A stretch of DNA of 64,000 nt from Limnochorda sp. L945t (GCF_035593305.1 NZ_CP141615.1:124001-188000), one strand, 5' to 3'. Positions 8,014 through 23,790 are shown, counted from the first letter of the stretch. The notes: a model not told the origin generated them from the sequence alone. Translations and numbers: made by a program.

Positions 8014-9041
8014 GCACGCTGCTCGAGGCCCGCCGGATCAGTGCGAGCTACCGGGTCGACAGCGACGGGCCGCGCATCCGGGCCGTCGATGACGTCTCGC
8101 TCACGCTGGAGGAGGGCGAGGCGCTCGGCGTCGCCGGCGAGTCCGGGTGCGGCAAGTCGACGCTCGCGAGCATCCTGTCGCTCAACGTCCACCCGCCGCT
8201 GCAGGTGACGGGGGGCCGGCTGCGGGTGGCAGGTCACGACATCCCGCTCGACGGCATCAACGGCGGCCGGGTGGCAACCGGGCTGCGGGGCAAGGTGGTG
8301 GCGCTGCTCCCCCAGGGCGCCATGAACGCGCTCAACCCCACGCTTCGGGTGCGGGATTTCGTCTACGACGTGCTGCGCTCGCACGTGGCGGGCATCACCC
8401 GCAAAGAGGCCATCGCCCGTGCCACCGAGCGTCTGGAGCGACTGGCGCTGCCGCCGAGGGTGCTGGACGCCTACCCGCACCAGCTGAGCGGCGGGATGCG
8501 CCAGCGGGTGGTGGCGGTGGTCTCGACGCTGCTCGACCCGGACGTGCTCATTGCCGACGAGCCGACCTCCGCCCTCGACGTGAGTTCGCAGCGGGCGTTG
8601 CTGGCGCTCCTGTCGCACCTGCTGGAGCAGCGCATCATCCGGGGCATTGTCTTCATCACGCACGAACTGCCGCTGCTCCGGTACATCGCCCATCGCATCG
8701 CCATCATGTACGCGGGGCAGCTCGTGGAGGTGGGGCCGGCGGAGGAGGTCCTCTTCCAGCCGGCGCACCCGTACACGAAGGTCCTCATGGAGGCCACCAT
8801 CGTACTGGAGACCGGTACGCGGCGCCAGCGCATCCAGACGGTGGGAGGGGCCCCGCCCAATCTCGTTTCGCCACCCCCGGGGTGTCGCTTCCACCCGCGT
8901 TGCCCGGTGGCGATGGGCCGATGCTCACGGGAGGCGCCACCGGTGGTGGATGTGGGGGCGGGCCATTCGGCGGTTTGCTGGTGGGTCGCCGAGCAACGGG
9001 CAGGAGAGGCGGGCAGTATGAGCCATGCCGCCAGCAACTGA
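8010..9041 (+). CDS. ABC transporter ATP-binding protein, DppD/OppD type
   Basis: Cytoplasmic ATPase of the importer, 343 residues from GTG 8010, with GGGAGGG nine bases upstream. It carries Walker A GESGCGKST, a Q-loop (LLPQGAMNALNP), signature LSGGMRQRV, Walker B with DEPTSALD, and the switch His in FITHEL. The C-terminal oligo_HPY extension contains four cysteines in and after CRFHPRCPVAMGRC, as in DppD/OppD proteins. The reading frame stays open for about 500 codons upstream, but that stretch is antisense-like shadow over the permeases and not part of this protein. The gene overlaps dppC by 4 bases and the next ATPase by 17. Confidence 0.94.
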   Translation: MSTLLEARRISASYRVDSDGPRIRAVDDVSLTLEEGEALGVAGESGCGKSTLASILSLNVHPPLQVTGGRLRVAGHDIPLDGINGGRVATGLRGKVVALLPQGAMNALNPTLRVRDFVYDVLRSHVAGITRKEAIARATERLERLALPPRVLDAYPHQLSGGMRQRVVAVVSTLLDPDVLIADEPTSALDVSSQRALLALLSHLLEQRIIRGIVFITHELPLLRYIAHRIAIMYAGQLVEVGPAEEVLFQPAHPYTKVLMEATIVLETGTRRQRIQTVGGAPPNLVSPPPGCRFHPRCPVAMGRCSREAPPVVDVGAGHSAVCWWVAEQRAGEAGSMSHAASN

Positions 9042-9834
9042 CGCGGTACTGCTGGACGTCCGGCACCTGACCCGGATCTTCGGGCACGGGGCAAGAGAAG
9101 TCCGGGCGGTGGACGACGTATCGTTCACGCTGCGGCGGGGCGAGATCGCCTCGGTCGTGGGGGAGAGCGGCAGTGGCAAGTCCACGCTCGCGCGGGTGCT
9201 GCTACGGCTCATCCGGCCCACGGCGGGGAGGATCGTTTTCGCGGGGCAGGACGTCACGCGCCTCTCCCGCCCGGGAGAGTTGAGGGCGTACTGGCGGCAG
9301 GTCCAGGCGGTGTTCCAGGACCCCTTCTCATCGTTCAACCAGTTCTTCCCAGTGCGGCGGGTCCTGGAGCGGAGCCTGCGGCTGGAAGGCAGGCTGGAGG
9401 CCGGGGAGAGGGACCGGCGCGTGCGCTGGGCGCTCGAGCGAGTCGCGCTCAACCCCTCCGAGGTGATGGGCAAGTTCGCCCATGAGCTCAGCGGGGGAGA
9501 AAGGCAGCGGATCATGATCGCCAGGGCGCTGGTCGTGCGACCCAAGCTGCTCATCGCCGACGAGCCCACCACCATGGTGGATGCCTCCTCACGGGCGACC
9601 ATCCTCAATTTGCTGCTCGACCTGAGAGACGAGTACGGGATGGCCATCTTGTTCATCACCCACGACGTGAGCCTGGCCAGCTACGTGAGCGACACGCTGC
9701 TGGTCATGCACCAGGGCAAGGTGGTAGAACAGGGCGAGGCAGGCCGGGTGACGGCCCACCCCCAACATCCGTATACGCGGCAGCTTTTCGCCGATGCGTT
9801 CAGCCTTTCCAAGGGGAGGTCCGTGGCAACGTGA
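9025..9834 (+). CDS. ABC transporter ATP-binding protein, DppF/OppF type
   Basis: Second ATPase of the importer, 269 residues. It has Walker A GESGSGKST, the Q-loop FQDPFSSFNQF, signature LSGGERQRI, Walker B with DEPTTMVD, and the switch His in FITHDV. It is shorter than many OppF proteins: it stops just after HPQHPYTRQLF and lacks the Cys-containing C-terminal extension seen in its partner. It presumably forms the heterodimeric motor with the 8010 product under the two permeases. It overlaps the next gene by 4 bases. Confidence 0.93.
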   Translation: MPPATDAVLLDVRHLTRIFGHGAREVRAVDDVSFTLRRGEIASVVGESGSGKSTLARVLLRLIRPTAGRIVFAGQDVTRLSRPGELRAYWRQVQAVFQDPFSSFNQFFPVRRVLERSLRLEGRLEAGERDRRVRWALERVALNPSEVMGKFAHELSGGERQRIMIARALVVRPKLLIADEPTTMVDASSRATILNLLLDLRDEYGMAILFITHDVSLASYVSDTLLVMHQGKVVEQGEAGRVTAHPQHPYTRQLFADAFSLSKGRSVAT

Positions 9835-11456
9835 CAGGGCAGCGACTGGGTGTCAACTACTGGGCGAGCTACGCAGGCCCGGGGATGTGGCGGGACTTCC
9901 GGGAAGAGGCGATCGCCGCCGACCTGCGTGCGCTCAAAGAGGCGGGCATCGAGTACACCCGCAGTTTCCTCTTCTGGCCCGACTTCATGCCGGAGCCGGA
10001 GCGGGTAGAGCCGGCCATGCTGGAGCGGCTGGAGCGGTACATGCGCCTCAACGAACGGATCGGGCTGGGCGTCCACCTCACGTTCCTGGTGGGGCACATG
10101 AGCGGGCAGAACTGGCCGCCCCGCTGGATGGCCGACCCGAGCCGGCTGTACACGGACCCGGGGCTCTTGCTGGCGCAGGAGCGGTACCTGGCCACGGTCG
10201 TCGAGGCGGTCAAAGGGAGCCCGGCGCTCGAGGCGTACGTGCTCACCAACGAGGCCCCCATCTTCACGGGGCCGGCACCGGCAGAAGCGGTAGAAGCGTG
10301 GGCCTCCCGAATGGTGGGGCTGGTCAAGCGCCTGGATCCCCACCGCCCGGTGACGCTGGGCGACGGGGCCTGGTACGTGCTGGGGGATACGACGAGCGGG
10401 TTTCGGCCGACGTGCGCGCAGGACGTCATCGCCCCTCACCTGTACCTGGCCGAGACTCACCCCGACCGGCAGGTCGCCGCGTACGGGATGGCGATGGCCA
10501 TGGCGCGTCGCTTCGCGACCCGTCTGGGCAAGGAGCTGTGGCTGGAGGAGTTTGGCGCCACCCACTCGGTTTTCGGGGAGGAGGAGGTGGCGGCCTGGGC
10601 CCGGCGGGTGGTCGTGGAAGCGCGCCTGCACCGTGCGAGCCGGGTCTGCTGGTGGTGCGGGTTCGACTTCCCGGACGCCATGCGGGAGACGGACCCTTAC
10701 AGCCACCATGCGCTGGAGCTTTCGTTCGGCATGCTGCGGGCAGACCGCACAGCGCGGCCGGTGGCGAGGGCGTTGCGGGAGGCCATGGACGCGCCGCTGC
10801 CGCACCTGGAGCGGGCAGGGGTGCTGGTACCGTCGTACCTACACGAGGTGTACCCCTTCTCCGAGCGGCCGGCGGCGGTGATGCAGCGGGCGCTGCTCAA
10901 CGCGTACGCGGCGCTGCGCAAACTGGGCTACCTGCCGGAGGCGGTGCTGGAAAGGGACCTGGCACCGGGCCAGGAGCAGGCGCTGCCGCCCCTCCTGGTG
11001 GTGCCGTCGGCCCAGAAGCTGCGGGCAGCGACCTGGGCGCGGCTCACGGAGCTGCCCGTGCGGGTGCTGTACAGCTACCTGCATGCGACGAGCGTGCGCT
11101 CCCACGAGGGCGGCTGGGTGGCGGCGGCCGATGCCCGGCGGTTTTTCGGCGGTGAGCCGCACAACCGCTTCAACCTCGCCGAACCGGCGCCCAGGGCGCT
11201 GGCCTGGGAGGGCGGGCAGCTGGAGCTCCCGCAGGGGCCAGATCCGTTTACTTCGACGCCTCTCGTGCTGGAGCCCCGAGAGGCCGAGGTCCGCGGGCGA
11301 GACGAGGCCGGGCGGCCTTTGTGGGTGCGGGTGGGACGGCGCGACATGCTGCTCTACCCGCTCGAGGCGTTGGCCGAGGATCCCGAGGTGGTGGCGACGT
11401 TTTACGCCGCGGTGCTCGGGCGAGAGGCTCGGCGGGGCGTGCAGAGCGGCGCGTAG
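9831..11456 (+). CDS. Clan GH-A glycoside hydrolase (GH5/GH42-like, possible beta-mannanase or beta-galactosidase)
   Basis: A 541-residue probable glycosidase with a TIM-barrel catalytic region in its first 330 residues. The expected acid/base Glu141 lies in VLTNEAP at the end of strand 4, and the nucleophile Glu240 lies in ELWLEEFGAT at the end of strand 7. NYWAS near the start and WWCGFDFPD at strand 8 also fit clan GH-A. Residues 340-520 resemble the trimerisation-like domain of GH42 enzymes (a run of PSYLHEVYPFS, then LLVVPSAQKL). There is no signal peptide, so it is cytoplasmic and probably cleaves imported oligosaccharides. GTG start, overlapping the ATPase gene by 4 bases, so it is the last gene of the importer operon. 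Exact family and substrate are not certain. Confidence 0.75.
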   Translation: MTGQRLGVNYWASYAGPGMWRDFREEAIAADLRALKEAGIEYTRSFLFWPDFMPEPERVEPAMLERLERYMRLNERIGLGVHLTFLVGHMSGQNWPPRWMADPSRLYTDPGLLLAQERYLATVVEAVKGSPALEAYVLTNEAPIFTGPAPAEAVEAWASRMVGLVKRLDPHRPVTLGDGAWYVLGDTTSGFRPTCAQDVIAPHLYLAETHPDRQVAAYGMAMAMARRFATRLGKELWLEEFGATHSVFGEEEVAAWARRVVVEARLHRASRVCWWCGFDFPDAMRETDPYSHHALELSFGMLRADRTARPVARALREAMDAPLPHLERAGVLVPSYLHEVYPFSERPAAVMQRALLNAYAALRKLGYLPEAVLERDLAPGQEQALPPLLVVPSAQKLRAATWARLTELPVRVLYSYLHATSVRSHEGGWVAAADARRFFGGEPHNRFNLAEPAPRALAWEGGQLELPQGPDPFTSTPLVLEPREAEVRGRDEAGRPLWVRVGRRDMLLYPLEALAEDPEVVATFYAAVLGREARRGVQSGA

Positions 11457-11516: not shown

Positions 11517-11543
11517 GGCGCCGGGCCCTACGGGTCCGGCGCC
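11517..11543. terminator. Hairpin at convergent gene junction
   Basis: GGCGCCGGGCCC (11517-11528), loop TAC, then GGGTCCGGCGCC (11532-11543): a 12-bp stem with one G-T wobble. It lies between the plus-strand hydrolase, ending at 11456, and the minus-strand RidA gene, whose stop codon at 11528-11530 is inside the hairpin. It could end transcription from either side; no clear T-run is present. Confidence 0.6.
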
Positions 11544-11920
11544 GCGACCGCCTCGATCTCGACAAGCGCCTGGGGCACGACCAGGCCGGTGACCACCGTG
11601 GTGCGGGCCGGGGGATCGGAGGGGAAGAAGCCACGGTACGCGGCGTTCATGGCTTCGAAGTCGCTCGCGCGGGCAAGGTACACGGTGACGCGGGCGACGT
11701 GCCGCAGGGAGAGCCCTGCCTCCTCGAGGGTTTGCTGGATGCGGCGCAGGCATGCCTCGGTCTGGCGGCCCGCATCGTCGGGCGAGTGCCGGATCACGTC
11801 CGCCGGGGGCGTGACGCCCGAGAGCCATACGAGGCCCCCCGCGCGTACGGCTCGGGAAAACGGCCGCCCGGGGGCCGGTACCAGGACCCGAGGACCTTGC
11901 TCGCGATCTTCGCCGGGCAT
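11528..11920 (-). CDS. RidA family protein (enamine/imine deaminase or relative)
   Basis: A 130-residue member of the RidA/YjgF/YER057c family, which hydrolyses reactive enamine and imine intermediates such as 2-aminoacrylate released by PLP enzymes. The fold-typical segments are present: WLSGVTPP, the conserved Arg in PARTTVVTG, and the C-terminal VEIEAVA containing the usual Glu. The start at ATG 11920 is two bases after the stop of the PLP-enzyme gene, so the two are translated together. That pairing makes sense chemically, because the upstream enzyme should release an enamine product. It is the last gene of the RpiR operon. Confidence 0.87.
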   Translation of the reverse strand: MPGEDREQGPRVLVPAPGRPFSRAVRAGGLVWLSGVTPPADVIRHSPDDAGRQTEACLRRIQQTLEEAGLSLRHVARVTVYLARASDFEAMNAAYRGFFPSDPPARTTVVTGLVVPQALVEIEAVAAPDP

Positions 11921-11922
11921 GG

Positions 11923-13080
11923 TTACGAAGGCTCCTTTCCGCTGAGTGCGTCGACGACCCGCTGCACCACCGTATCGATCTGCTCGTCCTCCAGTGTACG
12001 GACGTCGAACAGCACGATCCCCGAGTCGACGTGGTGGTTGCGAGTCCGGATCGACGGGTTGCCTGCTTCCAGCTGCCGGACCAGGGCCCGGGCGTCCACC
12101 GGCGAGTGGCCCGGCTCGATGGTCAGGCGGACCCGGGGGATCGGCCGGGTCTCGTCGGATACGATGTCGACCCTGGCATGCGGCAGCCCGGCACCTGCCA
12201 GGGTCTCGGAAAGCGCACCGGCCAGGTGCCTGGCCCGGCGCTCCAGGAGTTGCGGCAACGCCGCCTCGCCGGCCGCTACGTACTCTTCGAGCGCCTGCAG
12301 CAGGCCCGCGATGGCCTCCTTGCCCACCTTCATGGGCCGGCAGATGCCGAGCTCCTGGAGGCGGCACGCTTCGACCAGGCTCGCCTTGCCGGCCACGAAC
12401 CCGGACGTCGGGGCCCCCACGGCTTTCTGGCCGCTGTAGACGACCAGCGTGGCCCCGGCGGCCAGGTGTGCGCGCAGGTCCACCTCGGCCGCAGCATCGA
12501 CGACGACCGGGATGCCCCGGGCCTGCGCCAGGTGGGCCACCGCTCTCAGGTCGAGCATGCTTTCCTGCTGGGCGTGGTGCGAGACCACGTGGAGCACCGC
12601 GGCGGTGCGGGGGCCAAGGGCCGAAGCCATCTGGTCAGGGCGGGTGCGGTTGACGGAGCCCACCTCCACCGGGATGGCGCCGGTCATGCGGACGAGCTGT
12701 ACGATCTCCATCCCGAAGTCCACGGAGTGGCCCTTCTGGAGCACCACCTCGCGGCGTTCCAGCCCGTCGGTGTCGGGCAAGCGCCGTATCTTGCCGACGT
12801 CCGTGCCGGTGAGGCAGGCGGCCAGTGCAGCCACCAGCCCCGAGGCGGCACAGGAGGTGACCGTGGCGTCCTCGGCGCCGGTGAGGCGGGCGATGGCCCG
12901 GCCGGCCGCCCTTTGGAGTTGCGCCATGTCGACGTAGCGGCGCCCGGCCTCGGCCATGGCGGCCGCCACCGTAGGGCTCAGCGCCGAGCCGCCCAGGTAG
13001 GTCATCTTGCCTGCGGCGTTGATGACCCGGCCCAGGCCGAGCCGTTCGAAGGGATGCACGGAGGTGGCCATCTCAGGCAA
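11923..13080 (-). CDS. SelA/DgaE-like PLP-dependent enzyme (possible sugar-acid ammonia-lyase)
   Basis: A fold-type I PLP enzyme of 385 residues, related to selenocysteine synthase SelA and to D-glucosaminate-6-phosphate ammonia-lyase (DgaE). It has the typical N-terminal RVINAAGKMTYLGGS segment and the TSCAASGLVAAL cofactor loop (residues 75-86). The PLP-ring Asp195 is in VVVDAAAEVD, and the Schiff-base lysine Lys219 is in VVYSGQKAVGAPTSG. It lacks the extra N-terminal domain of SelA, so selenium work is unlikely. TTG start 13080 has GAGGAG eight bases upstream; the ORF overlaps the kinase gene by 8 bases. With a sugar kinase before it and RidA after it, ammonia elimination from a phosphorylated amino-sugar acid is the most attractive reading, but this is inference. 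Confidence 0.82.
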   Translation of the reverse strand: MPEMATSVHPFERLGLGRVINAAGKMTYLGGSALSPTVAAAMAEAGRRYVDMAQLQRAAGRAIARLTGAEDATVTSCAASGLVAALAACLTGTDVGKIRRLPDTDGLERREVVLQKGHSVDFGMEIVQLVRMTGAIPVEVGSVNRTRPDQMASALGPRTAAVLHVVSHHAQQESMLDLRAVAHLAQARGIPVVVDAAAEVDLRAHLAAGATLVVYSGQKAVGAPTSGFVAGKASLVEACRLQELGICRPMKVGKEAIAGLLQALEEYVAAGEAALPQLLERRARHLAGALSETLAGAGLPHARVDIVSDETRPIPRVRLTIEPGHSPVDARALVRQLEAGNPSIRTRNHHVDSGIVLFDVRTLEDEQIDTVVQRVVDALSGKEPS

Positions 13081-14683
13081 CGGTCGCGCTCCTCTCCTGG
13101 TAGAAACGGCGGAAAAGCGGGAGCAGGGTCTGCGTCAGTTCGCTGAACCGCTCGAAGAGCGCCGCGTAGGCGCCGGCACACGGGCCGGGTTCGACCACCT
13201 CGACCGGCGCCGGCACGAGCTGCCGAGCCGCATGGCGGGCGAGGGTCGCTTCGTCGAGCGACGAGCCTTCTCGCAAACGGGCTGCCAGACCAAGGACGGC
13301 GGCCCCCCGAACCGTCTCGAGTCCCGGGTCGGGTAGCCGGGTGATGGGTATCCCCAGCCCATCGGCCAGGATGCGGGCCGTGACGGGATGGATGCTGCCG
13401 CCGCCCGCCAGCGCGGCGAGGTGCGCACGCGCCCCGCTCTCCGCCAGCGCGCCGGTGACGGCCCGCAGAGCCATCACCACCCCCTCCACCGCGGAGCGGA
13501 CGAGGTGGGCGTCGGTGTGGGCCGGGGTCAAACCCAGCCAGACCCCGCGGGCCGAAGGTTCCCATAGGGGGGTTCGTTCTCCCGACAGGTACGGAAGGAA
13601 AAGGAGCCCATCGGAGCCCGCCACCACCGAGGCCGCGTCGTCCATGGGCAGCGGCCGCCGGAGGACCGCAGCCCGGAGCCACTCGAGCACTCCCGCCGCG
13701 TTGGCCGTTGCACCGTTGGCGACCCACGCCAGCCCGCCTCCGGCTCCGGCCAGGAAGGGGTAGACGGTGAGGCGCGGAGCACGAGCCGGGCTGCTCAGGT
13801 CGAGCAGCGGCCGTGCGGTCACGGTGCGGACCACCCCGCTCGTGCCCAGGCTCACGGTCAGCTGCCCGGGCTGCACGAAGCCCGTTCCAAGACTCTGGGC
13901 GACCCCGTCCCCGGCACCGAGCACCACGGGCAACCCAGACGGGAGCCCGGTCGCCTCGTGCAGGCGAGCAGGAAGGCGTCCTGCCACCTCGGTCGCCGCG
14001 CGAATGGGCGGGAGCCACGACGGATCGACGCCGGCAAGGTCGCACAGCCGCTCGTCCCACGACCGCGACGCCATACCGAAAAGCCCGGTGGCCCCGGCGC
14101 ACGAAGGATCCGTGGCGACCTCCCCGGTCAGGCGCCGGAAGAGCTCGTCTCTGGGCGAGAGCACCCACCTGGTCTCGCCGAGCGCCCGTCGAAAGGGCTC
14201 CGATGCGATCCCCGTGATCCGGCCTTCGGCCGCCTCCTTGAGCCACAGGAGCTTGGCCACGGGGTAGACGGGCGACGCATGGCATCCGGTAATGCGGTAA
14301 AACTCGGGCACGGCGGCATCCAGGAGGGAGGCCTGCGCCTGCGCCCGGCGGTCGTGCCATGGGATGGCAGGGTAGAGGTTGCGGCCGTCACGCCCGGTGA
14401 GGACGAGGCCTGCCATCTGGCCGGTGAGGGTGAGCGAGGCGAACTCGATCCGCCCGGATCGCCCGCCGGCCGCCGCCGCCACCCTGTGCAAGACGTCAAC
14501 GGCCGCGTCCTCCCACTCGGAGGGATCCTGTTCTGCCCAGCCCGGCCGGGGGGAGCAGGTCGGGTACTCCTGGCGCGCCGAGGCCAGCACCCGCCCTCGA
14601 ACGTCGAAGGCCGCTGCCCGGCAACCGCTCGTACCGAGATCCAGAGCAAGGAAGGCTTCGACGGCCGCTATTGCTTGGTCCAC
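13073..14683 (-). CDS. FGGY-family carbohydrate kinase (xylulokinase/gluconokinase-like)
   Basis: ATP-dependent sugar or sugar-acid kinase of the FGGY family, 536 residues, full length. The N-terminal phosphate loop LALDLGTSGCRAAAFD (residues 12-27), the substrate-region motif IPWHDRR (residues 107-113), and the catalytic Asp259 in GAGDGVAQSLGTG are visible. The second FGGY signature region (LSGERTPLWEPSARG) and C-terminal adenine site ALAGGGSIHPVTARILAD are also present. GTG start. It overlaps the cyclase gene upstream by 16 bases and the PLP enzyme gene downstream by 8. The FGGY family covers xylulose, gluconate, ribulose, glycerol and other substrates; which one applies here cannot be read from the sequence. 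Confidence 0.9.
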   Translation of the reverse strand: MDQAIAAVEAFLALDLGTSGCRAAAFDVRGRVLASARQEYPTCSPRPGWAEQDPSEWEDAAVDVLHRVAAAAGGRSGRIEFASLTLTGQMAGLVLTGRDGRNLYPAIPWHDRRAQAQASLLDAAVPEFYRITGCHASPVYPVAKLLWLKEAAEGRITGIASEPFRRALGETRWVLSPRDELFRRLTGEVATDPSCAGATGLFGMASRSWDERLCDLAGVDPSWLPPIRAATEVAGRLPARLHEATGLPSGLPVVLGAGDGVAQSLGTGFVQPGQLTVSLGTSGVVRTVTARPLLDLSSPARAPRLTVYPFLAGAGGGLAWVANGATANAAGVLEWLRAAVLRRPLPMDDAASVVAGSDGLLFLPYLSGERTPLWEPSARGVWLGLTPAHTDAHLVRSAVEGVVMALRAVTGALAESGARAHLAALAGGGSIHPVTARILADGLGIPITRLPDPGLETVRGAAVLGLAARLREGSSLDEATLARHAARQLVPAPVEVVEPGPCAGAYAALFERFSELTQTLLPLFRRFYQERSATVA

Positions 14684-15750
14684 CCCTTCAACCCCTGCCG
14701 CACCGAGAAACGCATGAGATCCCAGATCGCCCGGTTGAGAGAGACCGGTGTGCCGTCGGACAGGGGGTCGACACGGGCGCTCAGCCCATCGATGGCCCCG
14801 GCGTAGGAGCAGCGCTCGATGATCCTCCCGACGTCGATGGCATCGAGCACGTCGGGTCGCCCTGCACGGGCCGCCAGCGCGGCGGCAAGGGCGAAGGCTC
14901 CCAGGTTGGAGATACTGGCGGCCACGACGAAGTCAACGGGGGTGCGGGCGGCGAAGGTCTCTCCTTGGGGAACGACCCGGGCGACCGTCTCGGCGATGTT
15001 GCCCATGCCGAGCTCGTTGCCCCCGTCACCGATGCCCACGGTCAGGACCCCTCGGGAGCGGGCCAGCGTGAACAGCTGATCGGCATCCGCCACCAGGTGG
15101 GGAGGGACCTCCCGCCCCGATACGTTGTGATAACGGCCGTCGGCCCCCTTGCCCGGCATCTCGACGGCCACGGCGAGCGCCGGGGCGGTGCGGGAGAGCA
15201 GCTGGTCGGCGGCATCCCGGGCGACGTCCGGGTCAGAGGGGAACGGCACCACCGCCGCCACGGAGGCGGAGGGAGGGCCAGGCTTGGAGGCGAGAGCCTG
15301 CTCCAGCGAACCGAGGATCAGCCCTGCCGCCCTCAGCGACGCCTGGACGTACGGCACCAGGGCCGGGGCGGTGATCACCACCGGTACGACTTCCCACGCC
15401 TCCTCGAGGACCCGCGCTAGGACGGCCACGCCGACCGGGCCGTCCGTCTCGGTCAGATCATCGAAGAGCCATGACCGTGACGGAAAGCCGGTGGCCAAGA
15501 CCGCTCGCGCCCCCGCCGCGCGGGCGATGAGCCGCCGGGCGATGGCACCGGAGACGGCTTCCGTCAGGCTTGGAGGCCGGGATCGGCCTTCCACGGTGCC
15601 GCACGCTTGCGCTGCCGCCGCCTCGAAGAGGGGATCTACGACGCCTCGTGCGGTGAGGTCGGCCGCGATGAGGTGATCCATGACGCGAAACATGCTGGCA
15701 GGAAGCTCTGGGAGCTCGACGGCGTTTGCTTCCCTCGATGCCTCTGGCAT
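14668..15750 (-). CDS. D-glutamate cyclase-like protein (DUF4392)
   Basis: A 360-residue protein resembling the C-terminal DUF4392 domain of D-glutamate cyclase, which converts D-glutamate to 5-oxo-D-proline. Family hallmarks seen are EMPGKGADGRYHNVSG (residues 198-213) and the glycine-rich VGIGDGGNELGMGN (residues 238-251), followed by VDFVVAASISNLGAF. The start ATG 15750 was chosen because GGGAGG lies seven bases upstream; the frame stays open further but without a ribosome site. It sits between permease and kinase genes in the RpiR operon. The pairing of such a cyclase with a sugar kinase is unusual, so its substrate here may be something other than D-glutamate. Confidence 0.8.
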   Translation of the reverse strand: MPEASREANAVELPELPASMFRVMDHLIAADLTARGVVDPLFEAAAAQACGTVEGRSRPPSLTEAVSGAIARRLIARAAGARAVLATGFPSRSWLFDDLTETDGPVGVAVLARVLEEAWEVVPVVITAPALVPYVQASLRAAGLILGSLEQALASKPGPPSASVAAVVPFPSDPDVARDAADQLLSRTAPALAVAVEMPGKGADGRYHNVSGREVPPHLVADADQLFTLARSRGVLTVGIGDGGNELGMGNIAETVARVVPQGETFAARTPVDFVVAASISNLGAFALAAALAARAGRPDVLDAIDVGRIIERCSYAGAIDGLSARVDPLSDGTPVSLNRAIWDLMRFSVRQGLKGWTKQ

Positions 15751-15788
15751 CGGATTGCCTCCCATCGGTGAGGACGTTACCGGGCTGC

Positions 15789-16697
15789 TCAGAAGTGCAA
15801 CCCCGTGGAGCGCGCGGGATCGAGATGGTCCCGCAGTGCGTCGCCCGCCATGTTGAGGGCGAAGACCAGCAGGGCGATGGCGAGGCCCGGGAAGACCATC
15901 ATGTGGGGCGCCAGATGCACGAACCCGCGGGCCTGGCTCAGCATGGTGCCCCACTCCGGCGCGGGGGGCTGCACTCCCAACCCCAGGAAACCCAGGGCCG
16001 CCGAGAGCAGGACCGCCTGGCTGAGCTCCAACGTGATCTGCACGATGAGGGCCGGCGCTACGTTGGGCAAGAGGTAGCGCAGGACCATGCGGACGTCGGA
16101 GGCGCCCACGGCCTTCGCGGCCTCGAAGTACTCCATGCCCTTGACCTTCAGGGCGGCGGCACGGGCGATACGGGCCGGACCGGGGAGCGCTGCCGCCGCG
16201 ATGGCCAGTGCGAGGCTCTTCTCCCCGACCCCCAGGATGGTCACGATCGCGATGGCGAGCACGATCGAGGGGAAGGTGAGGACGAGATCGGTCAACCCCA
16301 TGAGCAGAGACTCGACCTTCGGGCCCAGGTAGGCCGATCCCAAGCCCAGGACGATACCCACCAGGGCTCCGATGGCGACGCCCATCGAAGGGATGAGCGT
16401 GGTAGGCCTCACGCCGTAGAGTAGACGGCTCAGAATGTCACGGCCGAGCTCGTCCGTGCCCAACCAATGCCCGGGCCCGGGAGGTTGGAGCGCGCTCGTC
16501 AGGTCCTGCCGGTCCGCGCCGTAGGGGGCGAGGAGCGGGGCGAGGAGCCCGAGCACCGTGAAGCCGGCCAGGATCACCAGGCCGGCCCACGCGCGCCAGT
16601 CGCCTGGCCGTTGCCGGGTAGCGCCCCGGCAACGGCCAGGTTGGAGCGTGGGCGCCACGGGTGCTGAATCGGTCGATAGACGTCCCGTGTCCACCAT
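15789..16697 (-). CDS. ABC transporter permease, DppC/GsiD type
   Basis: Membrane subunit of a family-5 type importer, 302 residues. The OppC/DppC signature is clear (HWLGTDELGRDILSRLLYG, about residues 77-95). The ATPase-contact loop KGMEYFEAAKAVGASDVRM and a C-terminal NMAGDALRDHLDPA are present. The start ATG 16697 lies seven bases after the partner permease's stop. The first 33 residues are hydrophilic, and their codons contain a perfect 16-bp hairpin (see 16603-16640). No ATPase gene is present in this operon, so the motor must come from elsewhere, possibly the 8010/9025 pair. Confidence 0.92.
   Translation of the reverse strand: MVDTGRLSTDSAPVAPTLQPGRCRGATRQRPGDWRAWAGLVILAGFTVLGLLAPLLAPYGADRQDLTSALQPPGPGHWLGTDELGRDILSRLLYGVRPTTLIPSMGVAIGALVGIVLGLGSAYLGPKVESLLMGLTDLVLTFPSIVLAIAIVTILGVGEKSLALAIAAAALPGPARIARAAALKVKGMEYFEAAKAVGASDVRMVLRYLLPNVAPALIVQITLELSQAVLLSAALGFLGLGVQPPAPEWGTMLSQARGFVHLAPHMMVFPGLAIALLVFALNMAGDALRDHLDPARSTGLHF
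16603..16640. repeat. Perfect 16-bp inverted repeat inside a permease gene
   Basis: CCTGGCCGTTGCCGGG (16603-16618), loop TAGCGC, then CCCGGCAACGGCCAGG (16625-16640). The repeat occupies codons 20-32 of the DppC-type permease, close to its start. An uninterrupted 16-bp, mostly GC stem in coding sequence should fold strongly in the mRNA and could slow or gate translation. Confidence 0.85.
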
Positions 16698-16704
16698 CGT
16701 GACC

Positions 16705-17625
16705 TCACCGGTATTGAATCCTCGGGTCGATACGGGCGTACGCCAGATCCACCAGGAGATTGACCACCAGGAAGGTGGCGACGTAGAGAATGGTCAGGGA
16801 CTGGACCATCGCGTAGTCTCGAGCACCCGCAGCCGTGATGAGCATGAAGCCAACGCCCTGGTAGGAAAACAAGCTCTCCACCACGACGGAACCGCCCAGC
16901 AGATAGCCCACCTGCAGGCCGAGCAGCGTGACAATCGGGATCGAGGCGTTGCGGAGCGCGTGCTTGAGGACCACCGTAGCCGGGCGCAGGCCTTTTGCGA
17001 CCGCCGTCCGCACGTACTCCTGGCCGAGGACTTCCAGCAAGGCCGAGCGGGCCGTTCGGGAAAAGAGCGCGACGAGCCGGGCAGCTACCGCTATCGAGGG
17101 GAGGACCAGGGTGGCCAGGGTGCCGGAGCCGCCTGCCGGCAGCCATTGCAGCCGGATGGCGAACCCACTCATCAGCAGCATCCCCAACCAGAAGTTGGGG
17201 ATGCTCAACAAGGCGACGCTGAGCGTCGAGGCAAGGCGATCCAGCATCGAGCCCGGCCGCAGCGCGGAGACGATACCGGCCGGGATCCCCAGGACAAGGG
17301 CCGTCAGCAGCGAGCTTGCGGCCAGCGCCAGGGTCGCGGGCAGACTCTTGGCGATGGCGCCGGCGATGTCGCGACCGTACAGGGTGGACCGCCCCAAATC
17401 GAGGCGAGCCAGCCCCTCGAGGTAGGAGAGGTACTGCGCGGCCAGGGGCCGGTCAAGGCCCATCTCTGCCCGCACGCGGGCGACAGCCTCCTCGGATGCT
17501 CCGAGGCCGGCCACGAGGCGGGCCGGGTCCCCCGGCGCCAGGCGAAACGAGAAGAAGACGGCCGTCAGCACCAGCGCCAGCACTCCTACCGCCTGGGCGG
17601 CCCGCCTCAGTACGAAACGCATCAT
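16705..17625 (-). CDS. ABC transporter permease, DppB/GsiC type
   Basis: Membrane subunit of the family-5 importer, about 306 residues. It begins with the standard MMRFVLRRAAQAVGVLALVL first helix, then RLAPGDPARLVAGLGA and GLDRPLAAQYL, as in DppB/GsiC. The ATPase-contact loop LGQEYVRTAVAKGLRP and C-terminal LAYARIDPRIQY are intact. A longer open frame exists, but ATG 17625 gives the normal N-terminus; an AGGAGG lies 18 bases upstream, further than ideal, so the start is uncertain by a codon or two. It works with the 15789 permease and the receptor at 17724. Confidence 0.9.
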   Translation of the reverse strand: MMRFVLRRAAQAVGVLALVLTAVFFSFRLAPGDPARLVAGLGASEEAVARVRAEMGLDRPLAAQYLSYLEGLARLDLGRSTLYGRDIAGAIAKSLPATLALAASSLLTALVLGIPAGIVSALRPGSMLDRLASTLSVALLSIPNFWLGMLLMSGFAIRLQWLPAGGSGTLATLVLPSIAVAARLVALFSRTARSALLEVLGQEYVRTAVAKGLRPATVVLKHALRNASIPIVTLLGLQVGYLLGGSVVVESLFSYQGVGFMLITAAGARDYAMVQSLTILYVATFLVVNLLVDLAYARIDPRIQYR

Positions 17626-17663
17626 GCCGCGGGGTTGGCCTGCCCTCCTTTCCTCGGGGCGAC

Positions 17664-17685
17664 ACCCGAGTCGAGTGACCCGGGT
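17664..17685. terminator. Imperfect hairpin between binding-protein and permease genes
   Basis: ACCCGAGTC (17664-17672), loop GAGT, GACCCGGGT (17677-17685): a 9-bp stem with one mismatch, in the 98-base gap after the binding-protein gene. Its position matches the stronger hairpins seen after other binding-protein genes in this window. Confidence 0.4.
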
Positions 17686-17723
17686 ACCGCCGTGCAAGCG
17701 GGGCCCTGCTCACCGCCGCATTT

Positions 17724-19352
17724 TCAACGCGACACTGCCCGCAGGTTGGTGAAGAGCGTGGGCAGCAGCGAGACGCCCCTGACGTCGCCGCGGACGGCGG
17801 TGATGCGGCGTTCGGCGTACAGCCAGATGTACGGGTTGTCTTCCATCAACGCCTTCTGCGCATCGCCGAGCACGCGTTCCCTCGCCTGGGGATCCATGGT
17901 CCGGTCTGCTTCGGCCAGAAGCTGGTCGACGCGGGCGCTGCGGTACCTGCCGATGTTCCACACCAGAGGAACGCCCTGGTCGTCGGGATTGGACTTGAAC
18001 AGGCTCGATAGCGTGTAGCCCCCGTCACCGTTGGATGGGTTGAACGCCCAGATGAACATGTCGAACTTCACGTCCCTGGCCGGCACCTTGAGGTAGTCCC
18101 AGTACCCCGCCTTGTCCACTTTGAGGACGCGCACGTCCACTCCGACGGCCCGCAGCTGGTTGGCGACGGCCTGAACGACCTGGATGTCGTTAGGATAAGC
18201 CCCTTCGGCCGTGATGAGGGTGACCGACAGGGGTTCGCCGTTCTTTTCGACCAGCCCCGATCCGGACCGTATCCATCCGGCCTCCCGGAGCAGTTCGCGA
18301 GCCCGTTGGGGATCGTAAGGGTGGGCTCCGACGGCAAGATGCCCGGTCGCGTCGGGCGCCACCGGAGAATCGAGCACGTCCGCCTGCCCCAGGAAGATGG
18401 CCTTCACGATCCCGGCCTTGTCGACCGCGTAGTTGAACGCAAGGCGCACCTTCGGGTCTTTGAGGGCGGGGTGGAGAAAGCTGAAGCCAATGCCGACCGT
18501 CCGGAGGGTGGGCCGGGAAATCACGGTGATGCCACCGGTGGAGGAGAGCCGCACCGCATCCTGCGGGGTCACCGCCGTGATCACGTCGGCCTGGCCCGCC
18601 AGCAGGAGGCCGACCCGTGCAGAGTTGTCGGGAACGTACCGGAACGTGATTTCGTCGACGCCGGGTTTGGGTCCCCAATACTCATCGAAGCGCTCCACGA
18701 CGACCGTGCTCCCGGGATCGAAACGGGCCAGCTTGAACGGGCCGGTGCCGACTGGATGCCGTTCGAACTCCTTACCGTACCGCTTGACGGCAGCAGGGCT
18801 GACCATGGAGGCCGAGCCGTGGGCCAGCGTGTTGAGGAGGGTGGGGAACGGGAACTTGGTCACGATCCGTACCGTGTAGCGATCCACGACGTCCACGGCC
18901 TGCAGCGGATCCCACAACGGCCGGTTGAGGGGGTTGAGCTGGGGATCCATGTACCGTTCGAGGTTGAACTTGACGGCCTGTGCGTCAAACTCGGTGCCGT
19001 CGTGGAACTTGACGCCCTTGCGGAGATGGAACGTCCACGTGCGCCCGTCGGCAGAAACGCTCCAGCCGGTGGCCAGCGAGGGGACGACGTGGAGCTGCTC
19101 GTCAAAGGCGACCAGGTTGTCGAACAGCACGAGCCCCACTTCGTAAGGGGACGGCGCGTTGATGTATCCGGCCAGCGGGTCGAGCTCGACGACGGGGACC
19201 TCCTGGGCAACGACCAGACTCGTGCGGGCCTGCGCAGTCAGCGCCGGACAGGCCGCGAAAAGGAGGAGCACGCTGGTGGCGAGCAGGGTGAGAGGCCAGG
19301 CGAGGGTACGGGTGGGACGTGTGGAACGGATCCATGCGTAAGGCGATGACAA
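17724..19352 (-). CDS. ABC transporter substrate-binding protein, family 5
   Basis: Exported receptor of the SBP_bac_5 (Dpp/GsiB-like) family, 542 residues. A signal peptide with a hydrophobic stretch (LTLLATSVLLLFAACPAL) covers residues about 21-38; the Cys near residue 35 might be a lipobox cysteine, but the context is weak. The family signature reads WTFHLRKGVKFHDGTEFDAQ (about residues 110-129), followed by PVGTGPFKLARF and EYWG. The start TTG 19352 has AGGAGG eight bases upstream. It is directly downstream of the rpiR gene and is the first importer gene of the operon. The ligand is unknown; the downstream enzymes suggest an amino-sugar acid, modified amino acid or small glycopeptide rather than a simple peptide. 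Confidence 0.9.
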   Translation of the reverse strand: MSSPYAWIRSTRPTRTLAWPLTLLATSVLLLFAACPALTAQARTSLVVAQEVPVVELDPLAGYINAPSPYEVGLVLFDNLVAFDEQLHVVPSLATGWSVSADGRTWTFHLRKGVKFHDGTEFDAQAVKFNLERYMDPQLNPLNRPLWDPLQAVDVVDRYTVRIVTKFPFPTLLNTLAHGSASMVSPAAVKRYGKEFERHPVGTGPFKLARFDPGSTVVVERFDEYWGPKPGVDEITFRYVPDNSARVGLLLAGQADVITAVTPQDAVRLSSTGGITVISRPTLRTVGIGFSFLHPALKDPKVRLAFNYAVDKAGIVKAIFLGQADVLDSPVAPDATGHLAVGAHPYDPQRARELLREAGWIRSGSGLVEKNGEPLSVTLITAEGAYPNDIQVVQAVANQLRAVGVDVRVLKVDKAGYWDYLKVPARDVKFDMFIWAFNPSNGDGGYTLSSLFKSNPDDQGVPLVWNIGRYRSARVDQLLAEADRTMDPQARERVLGDAQKALMEDNPYIWLYAERRITAVRGDVRGVSLLPTLFTNLRAVSR

Positions 19353-19417
19353 GAGAGAAGCCTCCTTTCCGTGTGGGACCCGCGATCATCCTGCCCGGCC
19401 GGGTCCGAACCGGGCTA

Positions 19418-20275
19418 TCAATAGCGCTTGTCGGCGTTCACCTCCCTGGCCCGCTCGATGTTGGCCAATGCTTGCTCGTAGCGCCGCAACGCGACGAGCA
19501 CGAAGAGGGCGTCCAGGAGCGTGACCTGGGCCACCCGGGACGACATGGCCTCGGTACGGAAAGCCGTCTCCCGCGCCGACGTGAAGAGGCTGATGTCGGA
19601 GGCACGGGTGATGGGCGATCGGCCCAGGCTCGTCACGCAAATGGTGGTGGCGCCGCCGCGGCGGGCGAGCTCCAGGGCCTGGACGGTGGCCTTGGTGCTG
19701 CCCGAGTGGCTGATGCCGACGGCCACCGAGCCCGGACGCATCAACGACGCCTTCACGGCCTGCGCGTGGCTGTCGCTGAGGGCCTGGGTGAGCAGCCCGA
19801 GCTTGACGAAACGTTGAGCCGCATCGGCGGCGACGAAGGCGGCGCCCCCGACCCCGAAGAAGACCACCTCGGTGCTGCGATGAATGGCGTCCGCAGCTCG
19901 CTCCATCGCCCCCGGATCCATGACGTCGAGGGTCGCCTGGAGGGCCGCGATGGTGGAGGCAAAGACCTTCTGGGTGGCAGACGCGGGGTCATCGCCGGGG
20001 ACCACGTCCTCGTGGATGCGGCGGGCCGGCTCCACGATCTCCTGGGCGATCCGGATTTTCAGGTCCTGGTACCCACGACAGCCGAGGCGGCGGCTCAGCC
20101 GTACCACGGTCGCCTCGCTCGCCTGGCTGCGGTCGGCCAGCTCCGTGATGGAGAGGCCGATGACGTCGGAGGCGTGCTGCAGGAGGTACTCCGCGACCCT
20201 CCGCTCCGCGGCGTTGAGCTGGGGCAGCAACCCCTCCAGGACGGCCAGGCTCTTCGGGACCGAGCGGACCTCCAT
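19418..20275 (-). CDS. RpiR-family transcriptional regulator
   Basis: A 285-residue regulator with an N-terminal HTH_6 domain (LNAAERRVAEYLLQHASDV, then ATVVRLSRRLGCRGYQDLK, about residues 20-75). A C-terminal SIS domain, which binds phosphosugars, spans about residues 120-255, with VVFFGVGGAAFVA, GISHSGSTKATVQ and TSLGRSPITRASD. It leads an eight-gene operon on the same strand ending at 11528. RpiR proteins usually sense a phosphorylated sugar intermediate, which fits the FGGY kinase in the operon. This is a separate protein from the RpiR regulator at 45747. Confidence 0.92.
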   Translation of the reverse strand: MEVRSVPKSLAVLEGLLPQLNAAERRVAEYLLQHASDVIGLSITELADRSQASEATVVRLSRRLGCRGYQDLKIRIAQEIVEPARRIHEDVVPGDDPASATQKVFASTIAALQATLDVMDPGAMERAADAIHRSTEVVFFGVGGAAFVAADAAQRFVKLGLLTQALSDSHAQAVKASLMRPGSVAVGISHSGSTKATVQALELARRGGATTICVTSLGRSPITRASDISLFTSARETAFRTEAMSSRVAQVTLLDALFVLVALRRYEQALANIERAREVNADKRY

Positions 20276-20565: not shown

Positions 20566-21849
20566 TCAGGGGGTCACGACCGTGCCCTGGAGACGGGATT
20601 GCTCGGCGGCAAAAGCCATGAAGTGGCTGTCGAGGGACTCCTGCAGCGACGTCAGGGCCTCTTCAGGCACCGCCCCGCTCTTGCGGGCCCGCAGCCGCCG
20701 GATGAAGGCCGCCATGAGGCCCTGGTCACCGCCGGCGTGCCGGCCGTTGCCGCCAAGGCGCATCACCTCGTGGACGGGGCCTGCAGCTCCGGTGGTCACG
20801 AAGCTCCGCACCTCGATCTCGCCCTTCTCGAGATGCCCCCGTATCTCGCCCCGGGTGCCCATCAGTTTCAGGGTACGCGTGTTTTCTTCGGTGAAGCCGC
20901 ACATCGTGAAGGCCGCGGTGACGCCGCCCTCGAACTCGATGGCCACGACCTGGTGGTCGACGACGTCGTTGTCGCACCGGTACACGCATCGCCCGTAAGG
21001 GCCGGTCCGCAGTGCCTCGAGGCGGCCTTCGGGAGAGAAGTCCCTGGTGATCACCGACACCGGCCAGTCGTTGGAGTCGCGCATCTCTTGCACGTAGAAG
21101 CGCACCGCGTCGAAGGGGCAGCGGTCCGCTGCAGGGCACCCGTCCGTGCAGCGGGCGGGCGCCCCCGGCGGGGCGTTTTCGGGGCGGAAGTGCACCAGGG
21201 ACCCGAAGGAGCTGATCTGCCTCCAGGGCCTTCCGACGAGCCATCGCAGCATGTCCATGTCGTGGCACGACTTGGCCAGGATCATGGGGCTGGACGTGGC
21301 CGTGTTGCGCCAGTTGCCGCGCACGAAGCTGTGCGCGAAGTGCCAGTACCCGACGTTCTCCGTGTACTGCACCGAGACGAGATCCCCGATGCGCCCGGCC
21401 TCGAGGAGCCGCTTGATCGTCGAGAAGAACGGGGTGTAGCGCAGCACGTGCGCGACCGTGACGCTGGCGCCGCTGCCCCGCTCTCGGGAGCGGCGTTCCG
21501 CCTCGGCCACGCGGCGAACCCCATCGGGCGTCGGGGCGATGGGCTTTTCGAGCAGGATGTCGTATCCGAGCTCGATCGCCCTCAGGGCCGGTTCCACGTG
21601 GAAGCGGTCCGGGGTGGCGATCACCACCGCGTCGGCGAGCCGCGGGTGCTCGAGGATCTCCTGCCAGGACGGGTAGCGGTGCTCTGGCGGGATGCCGTGG
21701 GCGTCTCCCAGGGCATCCCGCCTTGCGCGATCCGGATCGGCCACGGCCACCACCCTGGCCTCGTCCGGGTGTTCGAGCGCGTAGCGGGCGTAAACGTCGG
21801 CCCCACGGTTTCCGGCGCCGACGATGGCGAACGTCACGACATCCTCCAC
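20566..21849 (-). CDS. Gfo/Idh/MocA-family oxidoreductase
   Basis: An NAD(P)-dependent sugar or inositol dehydrogenase-like enzyme, 427 residues from GTG 21849 (GGGAGGT seven bases upstream; a second GTG at 21837 is possible). The Rossmann motif FAIVGAGNRGADVYARY opens the protein, and the family catalytic motif region ILLEKPIAPTPDG contains the usual Lys-Pro. A cysteine-rich insertion, CTDGCPAADRCPF, lies at about residues 235-250 and precedes RFYVQEMRDSNDWP. The gene follows a CUT1 sugar importer under a ROK regulator, so it probably oxidises or rearranges the imported sugar. The substrate is unknown. Confidence 0.9.
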   Translation of the reverse strand: MEDVVTFAIVGAGNRGADVYARYALEHPDEARVVAVADPDRARRDALGDAHGIPPEHRYPSWQEILEHPRLADAVVIATPDRFHVEPALRAIELGYDILLEKPIAPTPDGVRRVAEAERRSRERGSGASVTVAHVLRYTPFFSTIKRLLEAGRIGDLVSVQYTENVGYWHFAHSFVRGNWRNTATSSPMILAKSCHDMDMLRWLVGRPWRQISSFGSLVHFRPENAPPGAPARCTDGCPAADRCPFDAVRFYVQEMRDSNDWPVSVITRDFSPEGRLEALRTGPYGRCVYRCDNDVVDHQVVAIEFEGGVTAAFTMCGFTEENTRTLKLMGTRGEIRGHLEKGEIEVRSFVTTGAAGPVHEVMRLGGNGRHAGGDQGLMAAFIRRLRARKSGAVPEEALTSLQESLDSHFMAFAAEQSRLQGTVVTP

Positions 21850-21863
21850 GACCCGAACCTCCC

Positions 21864-21883
21864 TTGAACGCTTTTGAACGCTT
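21864..21883. repeat. Tandem 10-bp repeat
   Basis: TTGAACGCTT occurs twice head to tail (21864-21873 and 21874-21883) just upstream of the Gfo/Idh ribosome site. It partly overlaps the hairpin at 21880-21915. A regulatory role is possible but unproven. Confidence 0.5.
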
Positions 21884-21915
21884 CGCTCGGGTGGGCGCTC
21901 ACCCACCGGCGAAGC
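21880..21915. terminator. Intercistronic hairpin between permease and Gfo/Idh genes
   Basis: Outer stem GCTTCGC/GCGAAGC (21880-21886 with 21909-21915) and inner stem GGTGGG/CCCACC (21890-21895 with 21902-21907), separated by a small asymmetric bulge. It lies in the 95-base gap between two co-directional minus-strand genes and could tune expression of the dehydrogenase relative to the importer. Confidence 0.5.
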
Positions 21916-21944
21916 TCGCGATGGCCATCGGGACGACGTATGCG

Positions 21945-22778
21945 TTACGATTTCACAGCCCCTGCGGTCAGCCCGGAGACCAGGTAGCGCTGCACCAGGG
22001 CAAACGCGATGGCAGCCGGGACGACGGCGATCATCGAGGCTGCCATCAGGTGGTGCCAGAAGACGATGTTGTACCCCGAGAAGTCGTACAGCGCCAGCGG
22101 GATGGGGCGCAGTTCGCTCCGGGTGAGGAACGCCAGGGGAAACATGAGCTGGTTCCACCCCATGATGAAGGCGTAGATCGCCGCCGCCGCGAGCCCCGGG
22201 GCGGCGAGGGGCAGGATGACCTGGACCATCGCCCGGGCGCGGCTGCAGCCGTCGACCATGGCGGCCTCTTCGAGCTCCTTCGGGATCGAGGAGAAATAGC
22301 CGTGCAGCAACCAGATGACCATGGGGACGGCGAAGGCGGTGCTCGCGATGATGACGGAGGTCAGCGTGTTGAGCAGGTGATAGGCCCGCATGGCCTTGTA
22401 GAGCGGCACGATGAAGACCACGGGCGAGATCATCTGGGTGGCGAGCACCCCGAACATGAAGGCCGAGCTCCCGCGAAACTTGAACCGGTTGGCCCCGTAC
22501 GCCGCAGGCGCTCCCAGGAGGACCGAGAGCAGGCTCGTGAAGACGGCGATGATGACGCTGTTGGTGAAGGCCCGCGAGTACTGGTACCGGCCGCCCCACA
22601 CCTCGGCGTAGTTTTGCCACTGGGGGTTACTCGGGAACAGACGAGGGGGCCACGTGAACAGCTGGTCCATGCTCTTGAGGCTCGTGCCCAACATCACGAC
22701 GACCGGGAGCAGCATGGCACCGAGGATGACGATGAGCGCGACGTGCTTGCCGATCAGGTCCAGCGCCCGGGATCTCAT
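21945..22778 (-). CDS. Carbohydrate ABC transporter permease, MalG type (CUT1)
   Basis: A 277-residue inner-membrane subunit with six predicted helices. The EAA motif that docks the ATPase reads LEEAAMVDGCSRARAMVQVI (about residues 180-199). FTWPPRLFPSNPQWQNY near residue 40 and the C-terminal YLVSGLTAGAVKS are classic for MalG-like permeases. ATG 22778 overlaps the partner permease's stop as ATGA. The open frame extends far upstream, but that part is a shadow of the MalF gene. No MalK-type ATPase gene accompanies it. Confidence 0.93.
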   Translation of the reverse strand: MRSRALDLIGKHVALIVILGAMLLPVVVMLGTSLKSMDQLFTWPPRLFPSNPQWQNYAEVWGGRYQYSRAFTNSVIIAVFTSLLSVLLGAPAAYGANRFKFRGSSAFMFGVLATQMISPVVFIVPLYKAMRAYHLLNTLTSVIIASTAFAVPMVIWLLHGYFSSIPKELEEAAMVDGCSRARAMVQVILPLAAPGLAAAAIYAFIMGWNQLMFPLAFLTRSELRPIPLALYDFSGYNIVFWHHLMAASMIAVVPAAIAFALVQRYLVSGLTAGAVKS

Positions 22779-23713
22779 GCCGCGCTCCCCCCTCGCCGCA
22801 GCAGCCGCCAGTACCATATGCTGAAGGCCATGAGGATCAGGAAGATCAGCGACGAGTACGTCGACGCCGTCCCGACGTTGTACGTGGCGAACGCTTCCTT
22901 GTACGTGCGGATCACCAGGATTTCCGTGGCTCCCACGGGCCCTCCCTTGGTCATCGTCTGGATGATGTTGAAGGAGTTGAACGTCCAGACCACCGATAGA
23001 TTGGTGGCGACGCCCAGGACGGGCGCGAGCAGCGGCAGCGTCACGTGGCGGAACTGCCGCCACCCGGTCGCGCCGTCGACCGCCGCCGCGTCATAGATGT
23101 CGGACGGAATGGACTGGAGCCCCGCCAGGAGCACCACCGCCATGAACGGTACCCCGAACCAGATGTCGACGACCATCAACGAGACGAGGGCAGCGGCAGG
23201 TGAACCCAGGAAGATGATGCGGTCGTGGATGGCGCCTGCCATCAGCAGCAGGTAGTTGAGATAGCCATGCTGGCTGTCGTACAGCCACTTCCACGCGACG
23301 GCCCCCACGACCTGAGGGGTGGCCCAGGGTACGAGCAACAGGACCCGGTAGATGGCGTTGCCCCGAAATGGATGCACGAGCAAGAGCGCCAGTACGAGCC
23401 CGATGATGGTCTTGCCTGCGACCGAGCCGACGGTCCACAGAATGGTGCGCCATAGCGACAGCCAGAAGGCCCGATCCGACAGAACCTGCACGTAGTTGGC
23501 CATCCCGACGAAGCGCGCGCCGTCCAGAGGCCGCACCAGTGACTCGGAAAAGAAGGAGCCCCACAAGGTCGTGGCCAGGGGATAGATGACCACCGCGGCC
23601 AGGAAGACCAACGCCGGAGCCACGAAAAGCAAGGCCGACCGCTCCTCCCGGGTCAACCCCCCGACCATCGTCTGCCTGAGGGAAACCGGATGTGTCTCAA
23701 ACCCGCTTCGCAT
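22775..23713 (-). CDS. Carbohydrate ABC transporter permease, MalF type (CUT1)
   Basis: About 312 residues with six membrane helices. The segment REERSALLFVAPALVFLAAV forms the first helix, and the EAA-type loop reads YDAAAVDGATGWRQFRHVTL. The periplasmic-side motif MTKGGPVGATEILVIRTY is usual for MalF/UgpA-like proteins. ATG 23713 was chosen because it gives a short cytoplasmic N-terminus; the ribosome site there (GGGGGA) is weak, and ATG at about 23668 is a possible alternative. It is preceded by a hairpin that separates it from the binding-protein gene. Confidence 0.92.
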   Translation of the reverse strand: MRSGFETHPVSLRQTMVGGLTREERSALLFVAPALVFLAAVVIYPLATTLWGSFFSESLVRPLDGARFVGMANYVQVLSDRAFWLSLWRTILWTVGSVAGKTIIGLVLALLLVHPFRGNAIYRVLLLVPWATPQVVGAVAWKWLYDSQHGYLNYLLLMAGAIHDRIIFLGSPAAALVSLMVVDIWFGVPFMAVVLLAGLQSIPSDIYDAAAVDGATGWRQFRHVTLPLLAPVLGVATNLSVVWTFNSFNIIQTMTKGGPVGATEILVIRTYKEAFATYNVGTASTYSSLIFLILMAFSIWYWRLLRRGGSAA

Positions 23714-23734
23714 GCGCGTCCCCCATGGGCGGCC

Positions 23735-23759
23735 CGCCCGGGGGCGAGGCCCCCGGGCG
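23735..23759. terminator. Hairpin between binding-protein and permease genes
   Basis: CGCCCGGGGGC (23735-23745), loop GAG, GCCCCCGGGCG (23749-23759): a perfect 11-bp GC stem in the 77-base gap after the binding-protein gene. It probably stabilises or attenuates the operon mRNA so that more receptor than permease is made. Confidence 0.65.
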
Positions 23760-23790
23760 AAACCGCCGAGCGTGCTGCTTACCCGCTTCG

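Follow-up and report, generated by a model that had tools for sequence, protein, structure and literature searches.

A rare operon of Limnochorda sp. L945t that probably encodes PTS-independent catabolism of a 2-amino-2-deoxy sugar acid

Overview

A minus-strand operon of eight co-directional genes (11528-20275) in Limnochorda sp. L945t probably encodes a PTS-independent pathway for the catabolism of a 2-amino-2-deoxy sugar acid, with D-glucosaminate or a stereoisomer as the most likely substrate. The operon lies in the 64,000-nucleotide stretch of DNA that we analysed (the window), from a genome of 3.31 Mb (G000). If this reading is right, the operon represents a PTS-free route for D-glucosaminate-type acids. 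It also contains a DUF4392 gene without a cyclase partner. A preliminary description of this DNA had remarked that this gene has no place in described pathways; we reached the same conclusion, and the gene is nonetheless a conserved member of the operon.

Organization of the operon

The preliminary description reported eight co-directional genes, most of them overlapping or nearly touching, and we recovered all eight in the same order, each with a Pfam match above the cut-off and with intergenic spacing of -16 to +65 bp. The first gene (19418..20275) encodes an RpiR-family regulator with HTH_6 and SIS domains (PF01418, 70.9 bits; PF01380, 70.3 bits) that scored under the cut-offs of the YfhH, AlsR and HexR equivalogs. 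It is followed after 65 bp by a gene for a family-5 extracellular solute-binding protein (SBP5; 17724..19352; SBP_bac_5, PF00496, 329 bits), after a further 26 bp by an OppB/GsiC-like ABC permease gene (16705..17697; BPD_transp_1, PF00528, 131 bits) and after 7 bp by an OppC/NikC-like permease gene (15789..16697; BPD_transp_1, PF00528, 109 bits, and PF12911). The true start of the OppB/GsiC-like permease may lie about 24 codons downstream of the annotated one; its PF19300 match (57 bits) starts at residue 25. No ATPase genes for this importer are present within the operon.

About 8 bp separate the second permease gene from the DUF4392 gene (14668..15780; GLUCM-like_C, PF14336, 206 bits), the start of which lies somewhere in 15750-15780. 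This gene overlaps by 16 bp with that of the FGGY kinase (13073..14683; FGGY_N, PF00370, 172 bits; FGGY_C, PF02782, 104 bits), which overlaps by 8 bp with the gene for a SelA-related, DgaE-like PLP ammonia-lyase (11923..13080; TIGR01437, 348 bits; 251 bits to Salmonella DGL, 7lc0). The last gene, 2 bp further on, encodes a RidA-family enamine/imine deaminase (11528..11920; Ribonuc_L-PSP, PF01042, 84 bits). It was listed as an ORF of 279 aa owing to a spurious N-terminal extension, and the true gene encodes 130 aa from an ATG at 11920. Its PAR motif, which carries the active-site arginine, aligns with solved RidA homologues, including 2dyy; its score of 66 bits did not reach the cut-off of 106 for the TIGR00004 subfamily. 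Upstream of the RpiR gene, also on the minus strand (20566-23926), a Gfo/Idh/MocA oxidoreductase gene lies behind sugar ABC permease genes.

Conservation in other genomes

In a survey of 398 genomes of the phylum, relatives of the DUF4392 protein were found in 40 and relatives of the DgaE-like enzyme in 16. Both occurred together in only three (G000, G288 and G237), and in all three the two genes lie within one operon, an association beyond what chance would give. G288, from the same order but a different family and genus, has all eight genes in identical order at 50-69% identity (RpiR, 69%; SBP5, 68%). G237, which belongs to a different class of the phylum, retains the RpiR (48% identical), DUF4392 (50%), FGGY (39%) and DgaE (49%) genes in order, with an SSS symporter in place of the ABC importer, and its operon ends with a PF07071 KDGP aldolase gene, dgaF (251 bits). 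Conservation of gene order in relatives, on which the preliminary description had placed weight, was therefore found for the whole set in one genome and for the RpiR/DUF4392/FGGY/DgaE core in the other. The co-occurrence of DUF4392, FGGY, DgaE-like and RidA genes that it had suggested looking for is complete in G288 and extends to the first three in G237; RidA, kept in G288 and missing from the G237 operon, does not belong to the conserved core.

Extending the search to more genomes from the order, the G237 class and the phylum recovered no further example of the operon. The whole set is also present at 99% identity in a metagenome-assembled genome, Limnochordaceae bacterium Bu05 (L002), apparently from the same species; apparent frameshifts in its SBP5, DUF4392 and FGGY genes (L002 10001-12676) are probably long-read assembly errors. 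A wider scan of genome contigs retrieved only this assembly and distant family members, with search patterns strict enough to miss G288. The operon is thus rare, being present in three lineages among the approximately 430 genomes of the phylum searched overall. Taken together, these genomes show a rare yet coherent cassette in which the catalytic core is fixed and the transporter is interchangeable. Inspection by eye of the upstream regions in the window and G288 gave no convincing shared operator.

A genome from the same family as L945t (G353) carries a DgaE, FGGY and DgaF neighbourhood without DUF4392 (L120, G353:C1 620001-640000), so the pairing of kinase and DgaE occurs without DUF4392. 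There, an apparent insertion element disrupts the FGGY gene that adjoins DgaE, and DgaF and a CUT1-type binding protein are encoded on the opposite strand.

The DgaE-like enzyme and its substrate

DgaE is the nearest NCBIfam family of the PLP enzyme. Because both relevant models scored under their curated cut-offs (TIGR01437, 348 bits against 385; the DgaE equivalog NF047797, 319 against 600), the substrate may differ from glucosaminate-6-phosphate. In Salmonella DGL, the phosphate site is formed by Arg301, Arg332 and Arg346, and the proton donor is His163, beside His162 (PMC9529869). Alignment to 7lc0 placed K219, the HH pair, R316, R347 and R361 of the window enzyme at K213, H162/H163, R301, R332 and R346, and these six mapped active-site residues are retained in the window, G288 and G237. 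With all three phosphate arginines kept, the enzyme most likely acts on a phosphorylated substrate, which is consistent with the adjacent kinase gene.

Every sampled DgaE relative linked to DgaF, a PTS or an FGGY kinase has all three arginines, including Arg346. In six kinase-less, mostly amidohydrolase-linked members, this position is a cysteine within a DPCNL motif. Those from Rhizobium, Aminobacter, Salipiger, Qingshengfaniella and Paraburkholderia (L138-L142) are encoded with a family-5 importer and RidA, in most cases also with an amidohydrolase, and with no kinase; the sixth comes from a second locus of G288 (L125). In the tree, the DgaE proteins of the window, G288 and G237 form one clade (97/93) that is sister to the Cys346 clade (95/89). 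The Arg346-to-Cys split offers a simple, assay-testable sequence rule for phosphorylated versus free substrates.

It is also conceivable, though unlikely, that the substrate is another phosphorylated 2-amino-3-hydroxy acid (a pentonate, a tetronate or a stereoisomer) and that the DUF4392 protein epimerises or otherwise converts the imported compound to the D-amino form for DgaE. The scores under the equivalog cut-offs would fit such a substrate, as would the sister clade with an amidohydrolase and no kinase, which indicates a functionally diverse family, and one DUF4392 neighbourhood contains an Asp/Glu racemase gene. However, the G237 operon includes DgaF, the glucosaminate-pathway aldolase, which fits a C6 product, and no epimerase chemistry is known for DUF4392. 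We prefer a glucosaminate-type acid as the substrate.

Several other DgaE-like loci were noted. The Cys346 gene of G288 is approximately 13 kb from the main operon (G288:C1 2343001-2362000) and adjoins genes for a COG3964-like amidohydrolase and a sugar ABC transporter. A branch with an altered His pair includes PDB 8t7j and a protein encoded on a plasmid of Streptomyces sp. NBC_00467 (L137), in a cluster with NDP-hexose 2,3-dehydratase and dioxygenase genes that is perhaps for natural-product biosynthesis. Two candidates for additional DgaE-DUF4392 pairs were rejected on comparison with the window DgaE: a Bradyrhizobium "selenocysteine synthase" encoded beside DUF4392, which had no BLAST similarity to it (E 0.09), and likewise a class-V aminotransferase of Alisedimentitalea.

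Kinase, aldolase and transport

The FGGY kinase did not reach the level of the XylB xylulokinase equivalog (TIGR01312; 286 bits, 380 needed) or of gluconokinase (TIGR01314; 199 bits, 649 needed). A glucosaminate kinase was not mentioned in the literature that we searched, and so, if our prediction is right, the substrate of this kinase is one undescribed in those papers.

The absence of an aldolase, noted in the preliminary description, holds for the L945t operon itself. It does not extend to the genome or to the G237 operon: outside the operon, all three genomes encode an Eda-family KDPG aldolase (PF01081), with one each in G000 and G288, and DgaF, absent from the G000 and G288 genomes, is present in the G237 operon. 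The G000 eda gene, at 2.286 Mb (G000:C1), is unlinked to the operon. The missing aldolase step is thus available from elsewhere in the genome, and in G237 also from the operon.

A convergent plus-strand operon (2044-11456) encodes a LacI regulator, an aldo/keto reductase, an SBP5, OppB/OppC, two ABC ATPases and a weakly GH5-like protein of 541 aa, and is probably a glycoside importer. Its opp-type part (4278-9834, plus strand) lies just downstream of the studied operon, and the two ATPases encoded there may serve the importer of that operon. Common ancestry of the family-5 importer with those of the kinase-less DgaE/RidA operons was considered and rejected, as the SBP5 proteins are approximately 27% identical, no better than those of unrelated operons.

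The DUF4392 protein

The metal ligands of TON_0340, a stand-alone DUF4392 protein, are Glu59, Asp61, Glu115, Asp157, Glu161 and Asp246 (PMC5132392). All six acidic ligands are invariant in 63 sequences, and in the window protein they correspond to E102, D104, E198, D243, E247 and D333. As these ligands are intact, the protein is probably a Mn/Mg enzyme. Foldseek searches with an AlphaFold (AF2) model (pLDDT 92.6) gave significant matches to TON_0340 entries only (E 3e-20; TM 0.6-0.7 by query length), and thus the fold search revealed no better characterised relative. In the literature that we searched, only two papers name DUF4392.

TON_0340 is the sole stand-alone DUF4392 protein studied biochemically, and has a Mn-dependent phosphatase activity that is lost in the E59Q and D157L mutants (PMC5132392). 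With its six metal ligands invariant, the window protein might likewise be a Mn-dependent phosphatase in the same pathway, serving as an overflow valve that converts a phosphorylated intermediate to an exportable or Eda-independent product. We regard this as improbable. The phosphatase activity of TON_0340 lacks specificity and, at 1.9e2 per M per s on AMP, is very low (PMC5132392), a phosphatase next to a kinase in one operon would create a futile cycle, and the identified neighbours of stand-alone DUF4392 genes are mostly amino-acid enzymes, peptidases, RidA and transporters rather than kinases.

The preliminary description called this protein D-glutamate-cyclase-like. This label over-reads the Pfam name, since the protein belongs to a branch without the PF07286 cyclase partner. 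A tree of 57 DUF4392 members was split (100/99) into mostly short, PF07286-adjacent proteins and mostly stand-alone, longer ones; within the stand-alone branch, those of the window, G288 and G237 group as a single clade (100/99). In our sample, the neighbours of the family include PF07286 (14 proteins), gamma-glutamyltransferase, 5-oxoprolinase subunits and TRAP transporters, and stand-alone members often adjoin RidA, PLP enzymes, peptidases and amino-acid enzymes. At five loci (L050, L053, L060, L079 and L087), a stand-alone DUF4392 gene occurs with RidA, varied transporters (TRAP, ABC or SSS) and genes for peptidases or a Ser/Thr dehydratase. PF07286 is absent from the operon and from the entire G288 and G237 genomes, and the PF07286 gene of G000 is approximately 450 kb from the operon.

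If the protein were a genuine cyclase of D-glutamate (or of a D-amino acid), the operon would handle a D-amino-acid or peptidoglycan-derived compound, with the kinase and DgaE acting on the sugar-acid half of a glycopeptide-like import. Peptides are often the cargo of family-5 importers, and the PF14336 match is above the Pfam cut-off. Mouse DGLUCY, which contains a PF14336 domain, makes 5-oxo-D-proline (PMC5339696). Because this cyclase activity was demonstrated for a two-domain protein, it should not be assigned to the stand-alone gene. The operon DUF4392 protein falls in the branch without PF07286, no 5-oxoprolinase gene is present in the operon, whereas PxpABC genes accompany the paired members, and G237 has an SSS symporter. 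Our analysis gives no support for D-glutamate cyclase activity, and we think this explanation quite unlikely.

We tentatively suggest that the DUF4392 protein could instead catalyse the metal-dependent opening of the amino-sugar acid lactone, as this reaction, among those of use to the pathway, comes nearest to the chemistry of a ring-closing amino-acid cyclase. We hold this specific proposal with rather low confidence, and the weak Mn-dependent phosphatase activity of TON_0340, the only relative with a solved structure, speaks against it. Slightly less doubtful is the broader possibility that the operon defines a subfamily of DUF4392 proteins that catalyse a new reaction on amino-sugar acids (for example, lactone opening or the setting of C2 stereochemistry) and that its kinase is the first FGGY enzyme specific for a 2-amino-2-deoxy-aldonate. 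If this were true, DUF4392 proteins would be metal-dependent enzymes acting on (D-)amino acids, with D-glutamate cyclase only one case. The conserved gene also offers a tractable bacterial system for this domain, which is shared with human DGLUCY, without the cyclase partner.

A proposed pathway

In the pathway that we propose, the family-5 ABC importer would take up the 2-amino-2-deoxy sugar acid. The DUF4392 protein might then hold the unphosphorylated acid in its open form by interconverting the aminoaldono-lactone and the open acid, a reaction opposite in chemical sense to the ring closure of acid and nucleophile that has been reported for glutamate cyclase. The FGGY kinase would phosphorylate the terminal carbon, which is the job of the PTS in Salmonella. 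Judging from its conserved active site, the DgaE-like enzyme would remove water, then ammonia, to give 2-keto-3-deoxy-6-phospho-gluconate or an epimer. RidA would hydrolyse escaping enamine or imine, an optional role given its absence in G237. A KDPG aldolase (the unlinked Eda, or DgaF in G237) would split the product to pyruvate and glyceraldehyde-3-phosphate. HexR, a relative of the RpiR-family regulator, senses a ketodeoxy acid phosphate, and the operon regulator may be a repressor that probably senses the same kind of compound. The DgaE arginines, lysine and His pair, the DgaF of G237 and the conserved adjacent kinase thus support the scheme of import, phosphorylation and PLP-dependent deamination to a 2-keto-3-deoxy acid phosphate put forward in the preliminary description, with D-glucosaminate or a stereoisomer as the predicted substrate. 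Several observations weigh against this reading: the DgaE scores under the curated cut-offs, the kinase without an equivalog match, the lack of aldolase and ATPase genes in the operon, the loss of RidA in G237, an SBP5 not specially close to those of other DgaE/RidA operons and the rarity of the operon.

Comparison with known systems

The proposed pathway most resembles that of Salmonella dgaABCDEF, which likewise uses a DgaE-type PLP ammonia-lyase with all of the mapped active-site residues, followed by a KDPG aldolase. Unlike the Salmonella operon, that of L945t has an ABC importer and an FGGY kinase instead of a PTS permease, an RpiR regulator, the additional DUF4392 and RidA genes and no dgaF, and its DgaE scores under the equivalog cut-off of the family. 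The alphaproteobacterial kinase-less operons (SBP5, OppB/OppC, amidohydrolase, RidA and DgaE-like) also combine a family-5 importer, RidA and a DgaE of the sister clade. However, they lack the kinase and DUF4392 and have an amidohydrolase, the third phosphate arginine of their DgaE is a cysteine and their SBP5 is not specially related to that of the window.

The DUF4392 protein shares the PF14336 domain with DGLUCY and bacterial D-glutamate cyclases (PF07286 plus PF14336) and has all six metal ligands; it differs from them in its stand-alone branch, in having no PF07286 domain or neighbour and in the lack of 5-oxoprolinase genes in its operon. With TON_0340 of Thermococcus onnurineus it shares the stand-alone DUF4392 fold, but the window protein is approximately 90 residues longer and is conserved in a sugar-acid operon.
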